DNA from: an uncultured Ruminococcus sp.
Lineage (GTDB): Bacteria; Bacillota; Clostridia; Oscillospirales; Ruminococcaceae
Assembly: GCA_949291125.1 (NCBI GenBank)
Contig: CASEUJ010000004.1
Span: forward strand, 1 to 32,629
Direction: 5' to 3'
Length of the DNA: 32,629 nucleotides
Shown here: positions 16,523 through 23,737 of the stretch, one piece after another
How positions within the stretch are numbered: position 1 is the stretch's first letter
How the letters are laid out: each line of letters starts with the position of its first letter
Made by a program: the position numbers and the translations under genes
The notes under the pieces: model-generated
Seen by the model: only the letters and a program-made list of their open reading frames with translations
Told to the model about the DNA's origin: nothing
The model's database searches: none

Positions 16523-16608
16523 AAACGTTAGGTAAAAAATCTACCGGAATGCGATCGGTCTGTCTTTTCAGAATGATCCGTTCTAAATCCACCGGAAGGA
16601 GTTCTTTT

Positions 16609-19600
16609 ATGAAAAAACACAAGTTCGGAAAGCGGTTGCTCGCCTGCGCTGTCAGTGCGGCAACGATTCTGACCGGCACAACCATATTGTCAGCCATGAC
16701 GAAAACAACAGGAGTGACGGCTTCTGCGGCGTCATATGACAATTATGCAAAGCTCTTGCAGTATTCGCTTTATTTCTATGATGCGAATATGTGCGGTGCA
16801 GATGTCGGGGAAACCTCACAGCTGGAGTGGCGCGATGACTGTCATACGGAAGACGCTGTAACTGGCGGCTTCCACGATGCAGGGGATCATGTTAAGTTTG
16901 GTTTGCCGGCAGGTTACTCCGCATCGACACTCGGATGGAGCTATTATGAATATAGCGATGCGTTTGATTCGCTGGGACAGACAAGCCATCTGAAGACGAT
17001 CACGGATCATTTTTGTCAGTATTTTAAGGATTGTACTACGCTGAGCGGCAATACGGTCACCAACTTCTGTTATCAGATCGGTGACGGCGATGCAGACCAT
17101 GCAGTATGGTGTGCGCCGGAAGTGCAGGATGCAAGCACACGTAAGGCATATTACACTACAAATGGCGCAAGTGATATTGCGGCTGCTTATGCAGCAGCGC
17201 TTGCGGTCAACTACATTAACTTTGGCAATCAGGAAGACCTGACATATGCAAAGGCGCTGTATGATTTTTCATTGCAGTATAACACCTGTGCGACAGATGG
17301 ACCGAATTCGTTCTATCAGTCGTATGATTATTATGACGATCAGGCATGGGCAGCAGGCTGGCTGTATTTGGCCACCAATGATAGTACCTATAAGACATTT
17401 CTTAATACCTTTATGAATGCTAATGGTCAAGGCGCATCCGGTAATTCTGGCTGTAAATGGGGCGTTTACAGTACCATGAGTTGGAACAACGTCAGCGCTG
17501 GTGCGGCGATCCTTCAGGCAGAGATCACCGGAAGCAACAGCGACTGGGCAAAGCTTGGTAACTATATGAGCGGTAAATGCACCAGCGAAAGCACATATTA
17601 TTGTGAAGCGTCCTGGGGCAGCTGTCGATATAACACGGCAATGCAGATGATGGCACTGGTAACGGCAGATCACTGCAGCTCGATCAATTATTCTTCCTGG
17701 GCAAAGAGCCAGATGGCCATGATCCTGGGTAACAACCCGATCAACACATGTTTTGTCACTGGGTTTGCGGATAATTCTGCAAAATACCCGCATCACCGTG
17801 CAGCATCTGGCTATGACAACTTTGACGATATGACTGATCAGATCGGCTTTGCAAGCGATGGTCATACCCTGATCGGTGCACTGGTTGGTGGTCCGTCGGA
17901 TTCCAACTTTACATACAAAGACTCGGTTAATGATTACGAGTCGAACGAAGTTGCGATCGACTATAATGCAACACTCGTTGGTGCAGCAGCAGCCCTGTAT
18001 GCAAGATATGGCACAGGCTCACTCGATTCTTCCATTGAAGGCGTTGGCTCGACAGTAACAACACCGGCAACAACAGAGGCAACGACAACAGTTTCTACAA
18101 CACTGGGAACCACCTCTGCAACCAATGCACCGGCAACAACAGCTTCGTCTTCCCGTGCAACTGCGGCAACAACACAGGCGACTACAGCTGTATCAAATAC
18201 AGGCGATACCATCTTGACACCTACCAATGGGACAGATACAGGTATAGACGGCACACTCTATAAATATGTGGAATTCACGCCGAACGGTGCAGATTCTGTT
18301 ACAGTAAACTTCAACGTTTCCTCTAACGACAAGACAGCCTCTGTCTCCTTCGGCTATTGGAATGGCAGTGAGTGGATTCAGTCTGACGACAATGTGTCCA
18401 TTTCTAATGGACAGGTAAGTGTAGACTTTACAGTTCCTGATGATGTATACAACACTGTGAAGTTCAGCGTATACTATCCGGGTGCAGATTCTGTGAACAT
18501 TACTCAGGTGGCGCTTCACAACGGAACAAGCTCGAATCCCACCACTACAACGATCAACAACGGTAACACCGGCAATACTGGTAGCGGTGACACAGTCCTG
18601 ACACCGACCAACGGCTCAGAAGTGGGTGAAGATGGCGCACTCTATAAGTATGTAGAATTCACACCTGGGGATGCTGACTCTGTAAATGTATATGTAAATG
18701 TTTCCTCGAACGACAAAACAGCTTCCGTATCCTTTGGCTACTGGAATGGCAGTGAGTGGGTTCAGTCCGACGACAATGTTTCTATTTCCAACGGTCAGCT
18801 GAGTGTAGATTTCAAAGTTCCGGATGATGTATATGACAAGGTGAAGTTTAGCGTATACTATCCAGGCGCGGATTCTGTAGATATTACTCAGGTAGTACTC
18901 CACAGCGGCAGCACATCTGTGGTTACAACTGTTACAACAGCAAGAACGACTTCCAATCATAACAATACGACGACCACGAAGACAACTACCGCAAACGGCA
19001 ACAGCGGCGACACTATTTTGACGCCCACCAATGGGACAGAAACTGGTATAGACGGCACGCTCTATAAATATGTAGAATTTGTGCCGGGCGGCGCTGCTTC
19101 CGCAACAGTATACTTTAACGTTTCCTCGAACGATAAAACAGCTTCCGTTTCCTTTGGCTATTGGAATGGCAGCGAATGGATCCAGTCTGACGACAATGTT
19201 TCCATTTCAAATGGCACAGCCAGTGCTGATTTCGTCATCCCCAGTGATGTATACGACAAAGTGAAGTTGAGCGTATACTATCCAGGTGCAGATTCTGTGG
19301 ACATTACCCAGGTGGTGCTCCACAGCAGCAGCACTGCTGTCACCACCACAACTGCCAACAGCAGCGGCGGCGACACCATTTTGACTCCGACCAATGGCTC
19401 GGAAGCGGGTGTTGACGGTACCATTTATAAGTACGTAGAATTCACACCGGGCGATGCGACCTCTGCAACTGTATACTTTACTGTATCCTCAAACGATAAA
19501 ACAGGCTCTGTTTCCTTTGGCTATTGGAACGGCAGTGAGTGGATTCAGGATGACCAGAGCGTACGCCTTAACGGCGGTGAGGTGAGCGTAGATTTCACCA

Positions 19601-20049
19601 TTCCGGATGATGTATACGACAAGGTGAAGTTCAGCGTATACTATCCGGGCGCAGATTCTGTGGATATCACACGAGTAGTACTCCATAGTGGCACAAGCTC
19701 GGATCCGAATCCGACTACGACTGCGGCAACAACTACCAGAGTGACCACAACGACACGTGCAACCACCACAACAACGCAGGCAACACAGCGCCCATCAACA
19801 ACAACAGCACAGCAGCAGTTTAGCGGTACGCTGTGCGGCGATATTAACCTTGACGGCGAAGTAACGCTGGCGGATAGCATCATGCTGAATAAGGCCGTTG
19901 TGAATATCATTGACCTGACCGGCACTGCAAGAGCAAACGCAGATGTCTGCTCGAATTCGTCGGATATCGACGGCAATGATGCAATGGTGCTGCTGCGATT
20001 TGTTGTACAGCTTGAGTCCAGCATTCCGACAACACTCAATGCATCTTAA
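16609..20049 (+). CDS. Cellulosomal GH9 endoglucanase with four repeated modules and dockerin
   Basis: 1146 residues from ATG 16609 (AAGGAG 7 nt upstream). Signal peptide is about 1-41 (ends TASAA). The GH9 catalytic domain, about 42-468, starts directly after it, with Asp90 and Asp93 in GGFHDAGDHVKF, the His-Arg motif HHR at 395-397 and proton donor Glu447 in NEVAIDYNA. A Thr-rich linker follows. Then four 107-residue modules at 532-638, 660-766, 800-906 and 921-1027 are separated by Thr/Asn/Ser linkers. A dockerin lies at about 1076-1136 (GDINLDGEVTLADSIMLNK; DIDGNDAMVLLRF). The enzyme should cleave beta-1,4-glucan outside the cell and attach to a scaffoldin cohesin. Lack of an N-terminal Ig or CBM and the YDNYAKLLQYSLYFYDA start suggest an endo-type GH9. 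Confidence 0.94.
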   Translation: MKKHKFGKRLLACAVSAATILTGTTILSAMTKTTGVTASAASYDNYAKLLQYSLYFYDANMCGADVGETSQLEWRDDCHTEDAVTGGFHDAGDHVKFGLPAGYSASTLGWSYYEYSDAFDSLGQTSHLKTITDHFCQYFKDCTTLSGNTVTNFCYQIGDGDADHAVWCAPEVQDASTRKAYYTTNGASDIAAAYAAALAVNYINFGNQEDLTYAKALYDFSLQYNTCATDGPNSFYQSYDYYDDQAWAAGWLYLATNDSTYKTFLNTFMNANGQGASGNSGCKWGVYSTMSWNNVSAGAAILQAEITGSNSDWAKLGNYMSGKCTSESTYYCEASWGSCRYNTAMQMMALVTADHCSSINYSSWAKSQMAMILGNNPINTCFVTGFADNSAKYPHHRAASGYDNFDDMTDQIGFASDGHTLIGALVGGPSDSNFTYKDSVNDYESNEVAIDYNATLVGAAAALYARYGTGSLDSSIEGVGSTVTTPATTEATTTVSTTLGTTSATNAPATTASSSRATAATTQATTAVSNTGDTILTPTNGTDTGIDGTLYKYVEFTPNGADSVTVNFNVSSNDKTASVSFGYWNGSEWIQSDDNVSISNGQVSVDFTVPDDVYNTVKFSVYYPGADSVNITQVALHNGTSSNPTTTTINNGNTGNTGSGDTVLTPTNGSEVGEDGALYKYVEFTPGDADSVNVYVNVSSNDKTASVSFGYWNGSEWVQSDDNVSISNGQLSVDFKVPDDVYDKVKFSVYYPGADSVDITQVVLHSGSTSVVTTVTTARTTSNHNNTTTTKTTTANGNSGDTILTPTNGTETGIDGTLYKYVEFVPGGAASATVYFNVSSNDKTASVSFGYWNGSEWIQSDDNVSISNGTASADFVIPSDVYDKVKLSVYYPGADSVDITQVVLHSSSTAVTTTTANSSGGDTILTPTNGSEAGVDGTIYKYVEFTPGDATSATVYFTVSSNDKTGSVSFGYWNGSEWIQDDQSVRLNGGEVSVDFTIPDDVYDKVKFSVYYPGADSVDITRVVLHSGTSSDPNPTTTAATTTRVTTTTRATTTTTQATQRPSTTTAQQQFSGTLCGDINLDGEVTLADSIMLNKAVVNIIDLTGTARANADVCSNSSDIDGNDAMVLLRFVVQLESSIPTTLNAS
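18202..18522 (+). repeat. Module repeat 1 of 4 in GH9 enzyme
   Basis: Encodes residues 532-638, GDTILTPTNGTDTGIDGTLY to ITQVALH. Predicted all-beta with exposed aromatics (YWNGSEW, YYPGADSV). The position after a catalytic domain and linker suggests a carbohydrate-binding module, but I do not recognise the CAZy family. Confidence 0.8.
18586..18906 (+). repeat. Module repeat 2 of 4 in GH9 enzyme
   Basis: Encodes residues 660-766. Conserved core SSNDKTASVSFGYWNGSEW is identical to repeat 1, while the start (EVGEDGALYKYVEF) and FTPGDADSVNVYVNV differ. Confidence 0.8.
19006..19326 (+). repeat. Module repeat 3 of 4 in GH9 enzyme
   Basis: Encodes residues 800-906. The opening TPTNGTETGIDGTLYKYVEF is closest to repeat 1. 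The segment NGTASADFVIPSDVYDKVKL is the most divergent part. Confidence 0.8.
19369..19689 (+). repeat. Module repeat 4 of 4 in GH9 enzyme
   Basis: Encodes residues 921-1027. It keeps FGYWNGSEWIQ and VYYPGADSVDIT but has DDQSVRLNGGEVSVDF in place of SDDNVSISNG, so the loop after the aromatic strand is the variable one. Confidence 0.8.
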
Positions 20050-20084
20050 GTGAATCATTGTCAGATCAGATCTGATTGACTGAG

Positions 20085-20135
20085 TTATGGGATGTCCCGA
20101 TGGGGAAGTCCCATAATTTTTTCGAAAATTATGGG
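20085..20135 (+). terminator. Terminator after first GH9, with overlapping alternative hairpin
   Basis: TTATGGGA (20085-20092) pairs with TCCCATAA (20109-20116) before six T, a normal rightward terminator. The second arm can instead pair downstream: CCCATAATTTT (20110-20120), loop TTCG, AAAATTATGGG (20125-20135), a perfect 11-bp stem. The two hairpins cannot form together. Confidence 0.8.
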
Positions 20136-20196
20136 CAAATAGCACAAAAACAAGGCAACTTGTTTAGTTGTTTTTACTGAAATTCGAAAAATCAGC

Positions 20197-20225
20197 TTTA
20201 CAAGAAAAACCACGTGTGCTATAAT
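20197..20225 (+). promoter_or_regulatory. SigA promoter of the second GH9 gene
   Basis: TTTACA (20197-20202), a 17-bp spacer and TATAAT (20220-20225) with extended -10 TGC. Start of transcription is expected near 20232, leaving about 300 nt before the ATG at 20531. Confidence 0.8.
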
Positions 20226-20231
20226 AAATGT

Positions 20232-20530
20232 GACGAGTAGGTGATACTGTTGTGAGGGGATTCTCTTCGGCAGTATCCGCGACGGTCGGTTTGCCGACAG
20301 GGAAGATCGTTATGAACAGGGGCTTTTTTGTCACTGTGAAAGGGCATTTTTGTAAGAAGTGCTGCGGCTTTTGTAGACGGGTTTGTGTCAGATCGGATGG
20401 ACATGCAGGCTGGGATATTTCCGGCGGGTGTGTCGAATTGCAGATCAGGTTTCTTGTTTGAAAGCTGGGCATTTTTTGTGGAGAGGCTCAAAAAATCCAT
20501 TATTTCTATTCTTTTCAAGGAGGACATTTT
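20232..20530 (+). other. Long 5' leader RNA of the second GH9 gene, unidentified
   Basis: It contains a hairpin GATACTG (20243-20249)/CAGTATC (20271-20277), and GTCGG (20285-20289)-TTTG-CCGAC (20294-20298). Three look-alike T tracts of the form GGGC(A)T5-6GT lie near 20319, 20342 and 20468. A possible 49-codon Cys-rich frame lies at 20312-20461. I compared it by eye with SAM, c-di-GMP, THF, fluoride and T-box patterns and found no match. AAGGAGGA ends the leader. Confidence 0.5.
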
Positions 20531-23500
20531 ATGCTGAAGAAAAAACTCGGCAAGAAGATTGCTGCGTTGGCTTCTGCTGCTGTGATGGCGGTGACAGCGT
20601 CTGCGACAGGCATGGCTGCGATCACTTCACTGTCTGCATCCGCAAGCACAGAAACCGGCGAAGGCACCTTCGAGAACGGCAAGGCACTGCCGTGGCACAT
20701 CTGTGAAAGTGCAACCGCTTCCATGAAGTTCGATATCACAGATGGCATCTATGCCGTATACCTCGAGAAGGTCGGCGGTGTTGGTCAGGGCGGTGAAGGA
20801 CGCTGGGACTGCCAGTTCCGTCACAGAAATCTGACAATTGAAGAGGGTCATAAGTATCGTCTGACATATAGTGTCAACCCGTCTGTATCGGGTACATTCT
20901 ATTCGAAGATCGGTGATATGACTGATGACGATTATGAAGTATGGCACATGAACGGTCAGCCGCTGAACATGTCGTATACACCGAACATCGGACTTGATGA
21001 GCTGGAATCTCAGCTGAGAAGTGCTTCCGCGAATGGTGCAGAAGTTCCATATTATGTGGGCTGGGATGCATGGAAGAGCGTAACCGTTCCGGCAAATCAG
21101 TGGTCCACTTATGCGTATGAATTCACTGCAACTGAAACAAATAGTGACCATGTCACAACGGCTACTGGTGAGTGGACATTCCACCTTGGCGGTACGACTC
21201 CGCAATACAACCAGAGCTTTGAGTGCTTCCCGGATGGTACAATCGTGCTGTTCGACAACTTGATGCTGATCGATGTAACTGACAGCAATACCGACTATGT
21301 AGAAGAAGCTGAGTATGTAGAAACTGGCGTTGAGCTGAACCAGGTTGGTTATTATCCGAATGCAAAGAAGCTTGCAACTCTGGTAGTGGAACAGGGCGAT
21401 ACCACACAGTATGACTATGAGATCAAGGATGCTTCCGGCTCTGTTGTATATAGTGGTACAACCGACGGCAACGTGATCTATGACGAAGCAGCTTGGAACT
21501 ACAACCAGGTGATCGATTTTACGGACTTTACTACTGAGGGTACAGATTATACCCTGACTGTAAACGGTAAGACTTCATTGCCGTTTGATATTAATCAGAA
21601 TCTGTATCAGACCTATTACAGTGAGGGCTTGCTGACATATGCACTGAACTACTTCTACCAGAACCGTTCTGGTGTGGAAACGTTGGATCAGTACATTCCG
21701 TCTCCGCAGACACAGGAAGGAAGCGGCGCGACACTCGGTCGTAAGGACTGCCACAACCCGGATACAGCTTATATCGCAGATGAGTGGGTATACATCTACT
21801 CTTCTCTGCCAACCTATACACAGGATATTGACCTGACCGGTGGTTGGTATGACGCGGGTGACTATGGTAAGTACGTTGTAAACGGCGGTATCTCACTGTG
21901 GACACTCATGAATATGTATGAGAGATCGCTCATGGTCGGTAAGGGCGACAAGTGGGCAGATGGCTCTGGTACCATGGTACTGCCTGAAGCAGGTAATGGT
22001 ATTCCGGATATCCTCGACGAGTGTAAGGTTGAGCTCGACTTCTTCATGAAGATGCAGCGCAGCGATGGCATGGTATACCACAAGATGCACGACTATAAGT
22101 GGACTGGTCTGGCAGTTGCTCCGTATGAGCAGGATGATGAGAACCCGCTGAAGAGTGATGGTTCACTGCGCCCGATGCGCATCGTAAAGCCGGTAACACT
22201 GGCAGCTACACTGAACTTTGCAGCTTCTCTCGCACAGGCATCCCGTCTGTTTGAAGATTATGATGCAACTTACGCATCCACACTGTTGACAGAGGCGAAG
22301 GAATCTTATCAGGCAGCAGTAGATAACTATGTACCGTTTAGCGAAGTTGGCTTTACTGATACTGGCGTATATGCTCCGCTGGATCAGAACAAGGGCGGTG
22401 GCCCGTATGGTGACTCGGAAGTCAGCGATGAATACTACTGGGCAGCTTGCGAACTCTATATCACCACTGGTGATTCCTACTACTATGATGAACTGAAGAA
22501 GTACGGCACAAACGCTTATGGCGTGGACAACGCTGCTGCATTTGAAATCTCCACGACTCTGGTCGGCGGTGAAAACGAAGGTACATGCTCGCTCTTTACA
22601 TGGGGCACTCTGAACAGCGTTGGTTCGATTTCGCTGTATGTAAACTCTGCTGAGATGCTTGAAAAGGGTCTTCTGAGCCAGAGTGAAGTTGACATGCTGA
22701 AGGATCAGGTTGTCAACGCAGCAGACTACTTCCTGGATGTACAGTCTGAATCTGCATATTCGACTCCGTATCGTGGCATGACTTATGACGCAGACGTATG
22801 GTCTTACGACTACAATGGCTCGAACGGCGGTACCGGTAGCATGACCTCTGAACAGCTCGAAGGCGGTTATGAGTGGGGTTCGAACTCCATGGTTATTAAC
22901 AACACCATCGCAATGGCTCTGGCTTATGACGAAACACAGGATGTCAAGTACATCGACGGTGTTACTACGGCTTTTGACTACCTGATGGGTCGCAACTGCA
23001 TCGAGCAGTCCTTTGTAACTGGTTACGGCGAACACTCTACCGCTTATCCGCACCACAGATGGTGGTCTGGTCAGCTGGATAGCGAAGAATTCCCGTATGC
23101 TCCGTACGGTGTTCTTTCTGGTGGTCAGAACTCCAACATGAATGACCCGATGGTTCAGGGTCAAGGTTACAAGATCGGTGAAATTGCACCGATGGCTTGC
23201 TATCTCGATAACGTAGAAGCTTGGTCTGTAAACGAATGTACCATCAACTGGAACTCGCCGCTCTGCTGGGTTGTATCCTTCATCGATGACGAAGCTCCGA
23301 ACATTCCGGATCGTGACGGTTCGTCTACAACTCCGGTTACCACAGCTCCATCTGATGATACAACAACTACTACTGATGCAGACAGCACGACAACTGCTGA
23401 TCCAGACAGCACAACAACTGCTGATCCTGACAACACAACAACTGTTGATCCGGATAGCACAACTACAGCTGATCCTGATTCTACAACGACCACAGTAAGC

Positions 23501-23737
23501 GGAACTGTTGATCCGAATGGTGGTCTGTTGGGTGACGTAAACCTTGATGGTAATGTCAACATGTCTGATAGCGTTTTGCTGAACAAGTACACTGTAAACG
23601 CAGTTGACTTCGTTGCACAGCAGGAGGCAAATGCAAACTGCTTCGATGATGGCACAAACAACATTGATGGTAACGACGCAATGTCTCTGCTGAAGTTCCA
23701 GGTACAGATCCTGAGCGCTCTGCCGGAAACTCCATAA
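20531..23737 (+). CDS. Cellulosomal GH9 cellulase, CbhA/CelK-like, with CBM4-like, Ig-like and dockerin domains
   Basis: 1068 residues with AAGGAGGA before the ATG. Signal peptide about 1-38 (SLSASAS). Domains in order: CBM4/9-like module about 43-250 (GEGTFENGKALPWHI start, VLFDNLMLIDV end); CelD_N Ig-like about 265-355 (VELNQVGYYPNAKKLATLV); GH9 about 357-918; Asp/Thr repeat linker 949-988; dockerin about 1000-1062. Catalytic residues: Asp441 and Asp444 in GGWYDAGDYGKYV, HHR at 841-843, and acid Glu902 in WSVNECTINWN. The CBM4-Ig-GH9 order is that of CbhA/CelK cellobiohydrolases, so a processive exo or mixed mode is likely but unproven. The codons look more strongly biased than those of nearby housekeeping genes, suggesting high expression. 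It has its own promoter and terminator. Confidence 0.95.
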   Translation: MLKKKLGKKIAALASAAVMAVTASATGMAAITSLSASASTETGEGTFENGKALPWHICESATASMKFDITDGIYAVYLEKVGGVGQGGEGRWDCQFRHRNLTIEEGHKYRLTYSVNPSVSGTFYSKIGDMTDDDYEVWHMNGQPLNMSYTPNIGLDELESQLRSASANGAEVPYYVGWDAWKSVTVPANQWSTYAYEFTATETNSDHVTTATGEWTFHLGGTTPQYNQSFECFPDGTIVLFDNLMLIDVTDSNTDYVEEAEYVETGVELNQVGYYPNAKKLATLVVEQGDTTQYDYEIKDASGSVVYSGTTDGNVIYDEAAWNYNQVIDFTDFTTEGTDYTLTVNGKTSLPFDINQNLYQTYYSEGLLTYALNYFYQNRSGVETLDQYIPSPQTQEGSGATLGRKDCHNPDTAYIADEWVYIYSSLPTYTQDIDLTGGWYDAGDYGKYVVNGGISLWTLMNMYERSLMVGKGDKWADGSGTMVLPEAGNGIPDILDECKVELDFFMKMQRSDGMVYHKMHDYKWTGLAVAPYEQDDENPLKSDGSLRPMRIVKPVTLAATLNFAASLAQASRLFEDYDATYASTLLTEAKESYQAAVDNYVPFSEVGFTDTGVYAPLDQNKGGGPYGDSEVSDEYYWAACELYITTGDSYYYDELKKYGTNAYGVDNAAAFEISTTLVGGENEGTCSLFTWGTLNSVGSISLYVNSAEMLEKGLLSQSEVDMLKDQVVNAADYFLDVQSESAYSTPYRGMTYDADVWSYDYNGSNGGTGSMTSEQLEGGYEWGSNSMVINNTIAMALAYDETQDVKYIDGVTTAFDYLMGRNCIEQSFVTGYGEHSTAYPHHRWWSGQLDSEEFPYAPYGVLSGGQNSNMNDPMVQGQGYKIGEIAPMACYLDNVEAWSVNECTINWNSPLCWVVSFIDDEAPNIPDRDGSSTTPVTTAPSDDTTTTTDADSTTTADPDSTTTADPDNTTTVDPDSTTTADPDSTTTTVSGTVDPNGGLLGDVNLDGNVNMSDSVLLNKYTVNAVDFVAQQEANANCFDDGTNNIDGNDAMSLLKFQVQILSALPETP
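23375..23494 (+). repeat. Five 8-residue DPDSTTTA linker repeats
   Basis: Residues 949-988 consist of five units DADSTTTA, DPDSTTTA, DPDNTTTV, DPDSTTTA, DPDSTTTT between GH9 and dockerin. The acidic Pro-Thr linker is probably extended and possibly glycosylated. 24-bp units could allow length change by slippage. Confidence 0.9.

Follow-up and report, generated by a model that had tools for sequence, protein, structure and literature searches.

Four tandem repeats follow the catalytic domain of a cellulosomal GH9 enzyme in the 32,629-nucleotide stretch of DNA analyzed here (the window), and their remote homology makes it highly probable that they are carbohydrate-binding modules (CBMs). The account that we favor, with a probability of about 0.65, is that they belong to the group of CBM80 and CBM79, form a clade of their own beside CBM80, and would present an aromatic platform to a beta-1,4-glucan, with the copies acting by avidity. 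The repeats themselves, the purifying selection on them, the protein architecture, the remote homology, and the aromatic conservation are observed, whereas the fold, the ligand, and the avidity are inferred.

All four modules are encoded in frame in an open reading frame (ORF) at positions 16549 to 20049 (1,166 amino acids), which contains, in this order, a signal peptide, the GH9 domain, a Thr-rich linker, the four modules of ~106 residues, and a dockerin. The ATG at 16609, preceded by GGAAGGAG at 16594 to 16601, is a likelier start than the first ATG of the ORF at 16549; this start and GGAAGGAG were judged by eye, as was the signal peptide, recognized by a hydrophobic N terminus (probable start and signal peptide region, 16609 to 16743, forward strand, as are all features given here). 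The catalytic domain (16744 to 17985, residues 66 to 479) is assigned with certainty to GH9 by Pfam (PF00759, E = 4e-96) and contains DAGD at residue 110 and NEVA at residue 466. The type I dockerin (19837 to 19998, residues 1097 to 1150) scored 17.6 bits in Pfam, below the cutoff of 22.9, and is matched by solved dockerins (PDB 2ccl_B, E = 2.3e-5; 1ohz_B, E = 4.2e-5). A second GH9 protein is encoded next door (20531 to 23737); according to Pfam, it consists of CBM4, a CelD_N Ig domain, GH9, and a dockerin (20.5 bits, below the cutoff), and it lacks the module. This adjacent gene pair (16549 to 23737) is kept, with a relative of the second GH9 on the same stretch as one of the first in at least five loci; among the matches listed by blastp, the relatives of the second GH9 in L039, L040, L041, L045, and L155 are 71 to 81% identical over 471 to 688 residues.

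The modules extend from 18202 to 18519, 18586 to 18906, 19006 to 19326, and 19369 to 19689. Their DNA forms four direct repeats of 300 nucleotides each, beginning at 18202, 18586, 19006, and 19369, with 75 to 81% nucleotide identity to the first, and the protein identity to module 1 is 81% for module 2, 83% for module 3, and 74% for module 4. The repeat unit comprises 106 residues (GDT..LH) and one variable residue, in agreement with the four copies of ~107 residues at 18202 to 19689 noted initially. The motifs YWNGSEW and YYPGADSV, described there as strictly kept, are present in all four modules, and the linkers described as Thr-rich measure 22, 34, and 15 residues, with 32 to 41% Thr. A search of the window's own genome (2.2-Mb assembly, 87% complete) with module 1 retrieved the other three modules at E values of 1.2e-56 to 5.5e-52 and no further match at E = 0.001. 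The six copy pairs showed dN values of 0.10 to 0.15, dS values of 0.90 to 1.61, and dN/dS ratios of 0.07 to 0.15; the copies are under purifying selection, with silent sites near saturation while the protein has been held. In the tree described below, the four form one clade (support 100/99) and therefore arose, or were homogenized, after the split from the sampled congeners. The dS values of 0.90 (modules 1 and 3) and 0.95 (modules 2 and 4), versus 1.45 to 1.61 in the other four pairs, hint at a block duplication from modules 1 and 2 to modules 3 and 4, but the tree lends no support to such an event, which is not claimed.

The description of the module as unrecognized holds for Pfam, which matched none of the four modules credibly, and for NCBIfam as far as scanned, where the module region of the whole protein and modules 1 and 4 had no match. 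The CBM79-type profile PF18522 (cutoff, 25 bits) matched neither P0001 nor any module at E values up to 1. Compared with the PDB, module 1 alone retrieved nothing but 8ic1 (E = 0.0046 for the chain and 0.61 for the best stretch), a match to the word YWNG that was dropped. Also dropped as unrelated, each judged by eye, were YWNGSEW matches in long repeat surface proteins of Isoptericola and Cellulosimicrobium and a match in genome G131 that resembles an F5/8-type stretch. There was no relative among the 83 pattern matches on viral contigs, and a literature search, largely without full texts, yielded no account that we recognized as a module of the window type.

In a family sample of 197 genomes, a profile of the four copies had three matches at E = 0.01, namely, in the window's own genome, in the congener G138, and, spuriously, in G131; searching the genus yielded many more. 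For a wider profile, A2, 21 members were taken from 29 modules gathered in the genus; for convenience, it omits the eight on minus-strand loci (two in L041, one each in L046 and L047, two in L048, and one each in L052 and L054), which were put back for the tree. A further set of 30 modules, A5, combines 19 of the 21 members of A2 with 11 modules that A2 found in genera g20, g28, and g108; the third modules of L042 and L043 as well as L151, L152, L153, L154, and L155 stand outside it.

Among all PDB sequences, the best four matches to A5 were 5aot (E = 5.5e-4), 5aos (5.9e-4), 5fu4 (0.016), and 4d3l (0.024); A2 ranked 4d3l, 4v1k, and 4v1l first, yet at an E value of 0.17. We take 5aot to be CBM80, which fits its GH5 origin, and 4d3l to be CBM79, and both assumptions agree with review passages. 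The DUF5620 module of L039 matches the 4d3l entry at E = 4.1e-29, which makes DUF5620 the family of 4d3l. In hhalign comparisons, A2 matched ten CBM80 modules of other genera, found with the 5aot fragment, at 97.1% (E = 7e-11; score, 62.7) and five PF22579-type modules at 96.9% (E = 1.6e-10; score, 61.0), two sets that are not independent of A2 because L164 and L165 in the former and L049 and L053 in the latter match it directly. Two other sets are independent of A2: 12 CBM79 modules (95.0%; E = 4e-8; 83 columns; score, 48.4) and the seven g20 modules among the ten of CBM80 (80.4%; E = 1.3e-5; score, 35.1). The profile of the four window modules alone reached 83.0% with CBM80 and 83.3% with CBM79 (scores of 35.1 and 35.6). 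Column shuffles, made for the CBM79, PF22579-type, and ten-member CBM80 sets alone (40, 40, and 60, respectively), gave best scores of 17.6, 17.9, and 19.7, which the real scores exceed 2.7- to 3.4-fold; reversed sets scored 13.5 and 15.8, and eight other domains of these proteins scored 8.9 to 19.3. The single 5aot fragment scored 21.6 against A2 (15.7%), barely over the best unrelated domain, and 43.5 against A5, and the CBM79 set matched the ten CBM80 modules weakly (23.1%; score, 25.4).

At position 61 of A5, Trp is found in 29 of the 30 members (L150 has a gap), and all 30 have aromatic residues at positions 94 and 95. Trp61 aligns with NGDW and Tyr94-Tyr95 with IWW of the CBM80 member 5aot; in 5fu4, the second Trp of IWW is changed to Ala, the sole difference within the compared stretch. 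Every aligned position is aromatic in the window modules, but Tyr-Tyr takes the place of Trp-Trp, and such a replacement of the Trp pair of CBM80 and CBM79 could mean weak or lost binding. This remote, shuffle-controlled homology to solved CBM80 and CBM79 structures and the kept aromatic positions support the initial reading of the modules as CBMs; the accompanying statement that they cannot be placed was too strong, since the profiles put them beside CBM80.

CBM80 (PDB 5aos, 5aot, and 5fu2 to 5fu4, labeled CBM74-RFGH5; Pfam PF22579, Cbm74) is a module of a Ruminococcus flavefaciens GH5 enzyme. It shares with the window modules ~80 to 100 alignable columns, an NGxW hairpin plus an aromatic pair, and, according to passages of PMC7480376, an occurrence in dockerin enzymes of ruminococci; the window modules, in contrast, sit in four copies on a GH9 enzyme, whereas passages of PMC10992016 list CBM80 with GH5. 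CBM79 (PDB 4d3l, 4v1k, and 4v1l; PF18522, DUF5620) resembles the modules in its GH9 partners and in its FGxS..W and GVWW motifs, which are in register, but Pfam detects it well, as a separate family. The two kinds are distinct, as CBM79 stands beside a window-type module in L039, L044, L045, L052, and L144. The same passages of the review PMC10992016 name CBM80RfGH5 and CBM79-1RfGH9, with beta-glucans and xyloglucan as ligands, and those of the rumen study PMC7480376 describe GH5_4-CBM80-dockerin and GH9-CBM79-dockerin proteins in a Ruminococcus and state that both families had until then been found in ruminococci only.

At E = 0.001, A2 matched 14 of the 16 genomes of the genus, G198 and G204 being without a match. 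In the wider family sample, matches were obtained in 20 of 396 genomes and 5 of 126 genera, and in the order (1 of 394) and phylum (1 of 398) samples in the window's own genome alone. As A2 also catches CBM80-like modules, a match in g6, g28, or g108 need not be of the window type; outside the genus, only g20 modules joined that type in the tree, which does not include g6. Among 18 genus regions, 16 had an ORF matching the four-copy profile; the wider profile added one more, in L055, and L056 has none. Of these 16 ORFs, six encode the orthologous GH9 protein (L039, L040, L041, L044, L045, and L046), four are CttA-like (L042, L043, L048, and L052), and the other six encode short secreted proteins that end in a dockerin-like domain (L047, L049, L050, L051, L053, and L054), as labeled by Pfam for some (GH9, DUF5620, and dockerin in L039; dockerin in L049) and by reading the sequences for others, with GH9 in L040, L041, L044, and L045 also seen by blastp. 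The module is borne by a carbohydrate-active enzyme both in the window and in 6 of the 16 genus ORFs, and it is not peculiar to the window's enzyme.

A reading of the CttA-like proteins as cohesin scaffoldins was dropped because Pfam gave CttA_N and no cohesin among the three scanned (L043, L048, and L052); CttA_N was found in L048 (E = 8e-9), below the cutoff in L052, and not in L043, whose ORF runs off the contig. Passages of PMC5301203 describe R. flavefaciens CttA as CBM-CBM-X-Doc and thought to aid substrate targeting and adhesion. The congeners' proteins with XDoc-like ends carry one to three window-type modules, a likeness of architecture, and the window's protein differs in being an enzyme. 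All four CttA-like proteins also have two tandem domains of ~200 residues that separate the modules from the XDoc-like end and had no Pfam match in L043, L048, and L052. Some short dockerin-type proteins have a second, CBM80-like N-terminal domain (L049, 2145 to 2498; L053, 3362 to 3640; L051, 793 to 1131), matched by PF22579 at E = 2.5e-12 in L049, and a further domain ahead of the dockerin, which had no Pfam match in L049.

That the modules are plain CBM80, too divergent for the PF22579 model, would agree with 5aot as the best PDB match, with the similar size of 106 residues, and with the PF22579 matches to 4 of the 30 A5 members at E = 0.01 (best, 1.7e-4). We consider this unlikely, since PF22579 (cutoff, 27 bits) matched none of the four window modules even at E = 1, and a tree of 46 modules separates 34 window-type rows (29 from the genus and 5 from g20) from 12 CBM80-like rows with a support of 100/99, leaving the window modules outside the clade of the solved member 5aot. 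The CBM80-like rows are 5aot, here a 67-residue fragment, three GH9 modules each from g28 and g108, and five PF22579-type modules; two of these rows end in long branches. Moreover, the g20 genomes G636, G677, G715, and G747 hold the window type plus CBM80 proper elsewhere (one CBM80 ORF, L160, reads by eye as GH5-like, CBM80, and dockerin-like), which makes the window type a paralogous clade and not CBM80 drifting in one species. In g28 and g108, the CBM80-like modules sit between GH9 and the dockerin, the same place as the window modules. Most likely, judging from these comparisons, the window modules represent a sister clade of CBM80 that has no Pfam or NCBIfam name as scanned.

Two further explanations would deny the modules a plant glycan ligand. 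As Ig- or X2-type structural spacers, they would part GH9 from the dockerin or stabilize the enzyme, as might be expected of tandem beta-type repeats on linkers of a cellulosomal enzyme whose platform Trp pair has been replaced by Tyr-Tyr; this is improbable, given that no Ig or X-module profile matched them, that the hhalign score with the neighbor's CelD_N Ig domain (16.1) is at shuffle level, that the aromatics at 61, 94, and 95 are kept over the 30 members, and that the module also occurs on CttA-like and short dockerin-type proteins without a recognized catalytic domain. The latter occurrence would suit modules whose ligand is another protein or a glycan of the cell's own envelope, for cellulosome assembly or attachment, but the detectable homologues bind plant glucans and no cohesin or X-module similarity was detected, and we give this explanation very little credence.

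In the favored account of glucan-binding modules, each module would offer an aromatic platform made of Trp61 on the YWNGSEW hairpin and Tyr94-Tyr95 on the YYPG strand, which may meet a beta-1,4-linked glucan chain, for example that of xyloglucan, mixed-linkage beta-glucan, or amorphous cellulose. Through the avidity of four copies strung on flexible Thr-rich linkers, the GH9 enzyme would stay on its substrate, and the dockerin would plug it into a cellulosome. The ligand is probably a beta-1,4-glucan or xyloglucan, held by avidity, and avidity for a repetitive or soluble glucan, as proposed initially, is plausible.

Among the GH9 proteins read, six have a single WW module (L142, L144, L146, L148, L150, and L152), and FY or YY modules number two to four (FY plus YY in L039; four YY in the window). 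L143 has WW plus FW, FW or YW is single in L145, L147, and L149, and YW is double in L040, L041, and L044; L155 and L056 contribute no module to this list, and L046, with one YW module, stands outside it. L045 (FY) and L141 (FW) each show half a module cut by runs of N, with further copies in neighboring frames. The relation between copy number and platform is a lead only and is confounded by kinship. A tentative extension is that the modules constitute a novel CBM family and the sister of CBM80; in it, Trp-Trp would have been given up for Tyr and affinity per site traded for copy number, providing a glucan grip common to enzymes, CttA-like proteins, and dockerin proteins that lack an enzyme. 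The cellulosomes of ruminococci are noted for having their own CBM families, and the present one is blank in Pfam. Naming the module would tie cellulases to CttA-like proteins and annotate 36 profile matches in 14 of the 16 genomes of the genus; two of these matches lie in the N-terminal, CBM80-like domains of L049 and L053, and runs of N reduce two others to halves. In nature, the copy number runs from one to four and the platform aromatics vary, a series that makes avidity versus affinity in fiber binding testable.

The runs of N in the GH9 genes of L045 and L141 lie inside the module repeats, as if the assemblies had collapsed there, and draft genomes may understate the number of copies. 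The window's own genome (G000) has one PF22579 module (L095; contig C16, about 160386 to 160568), distant from any cellulosome enzyme, in a 3,756-amino-acid open frame that by eye resembles a wall-anchored Cna_B-type surface protein. Contig C1 of the same genome (L071 and L092) encodes a protein with two DUF5620/CBM79 modules followed by a GH5-like domain, the latter judged by eye, which resembles the CBM79-CBM79-GH5_4 architecture listed in passages of PMC7480376.
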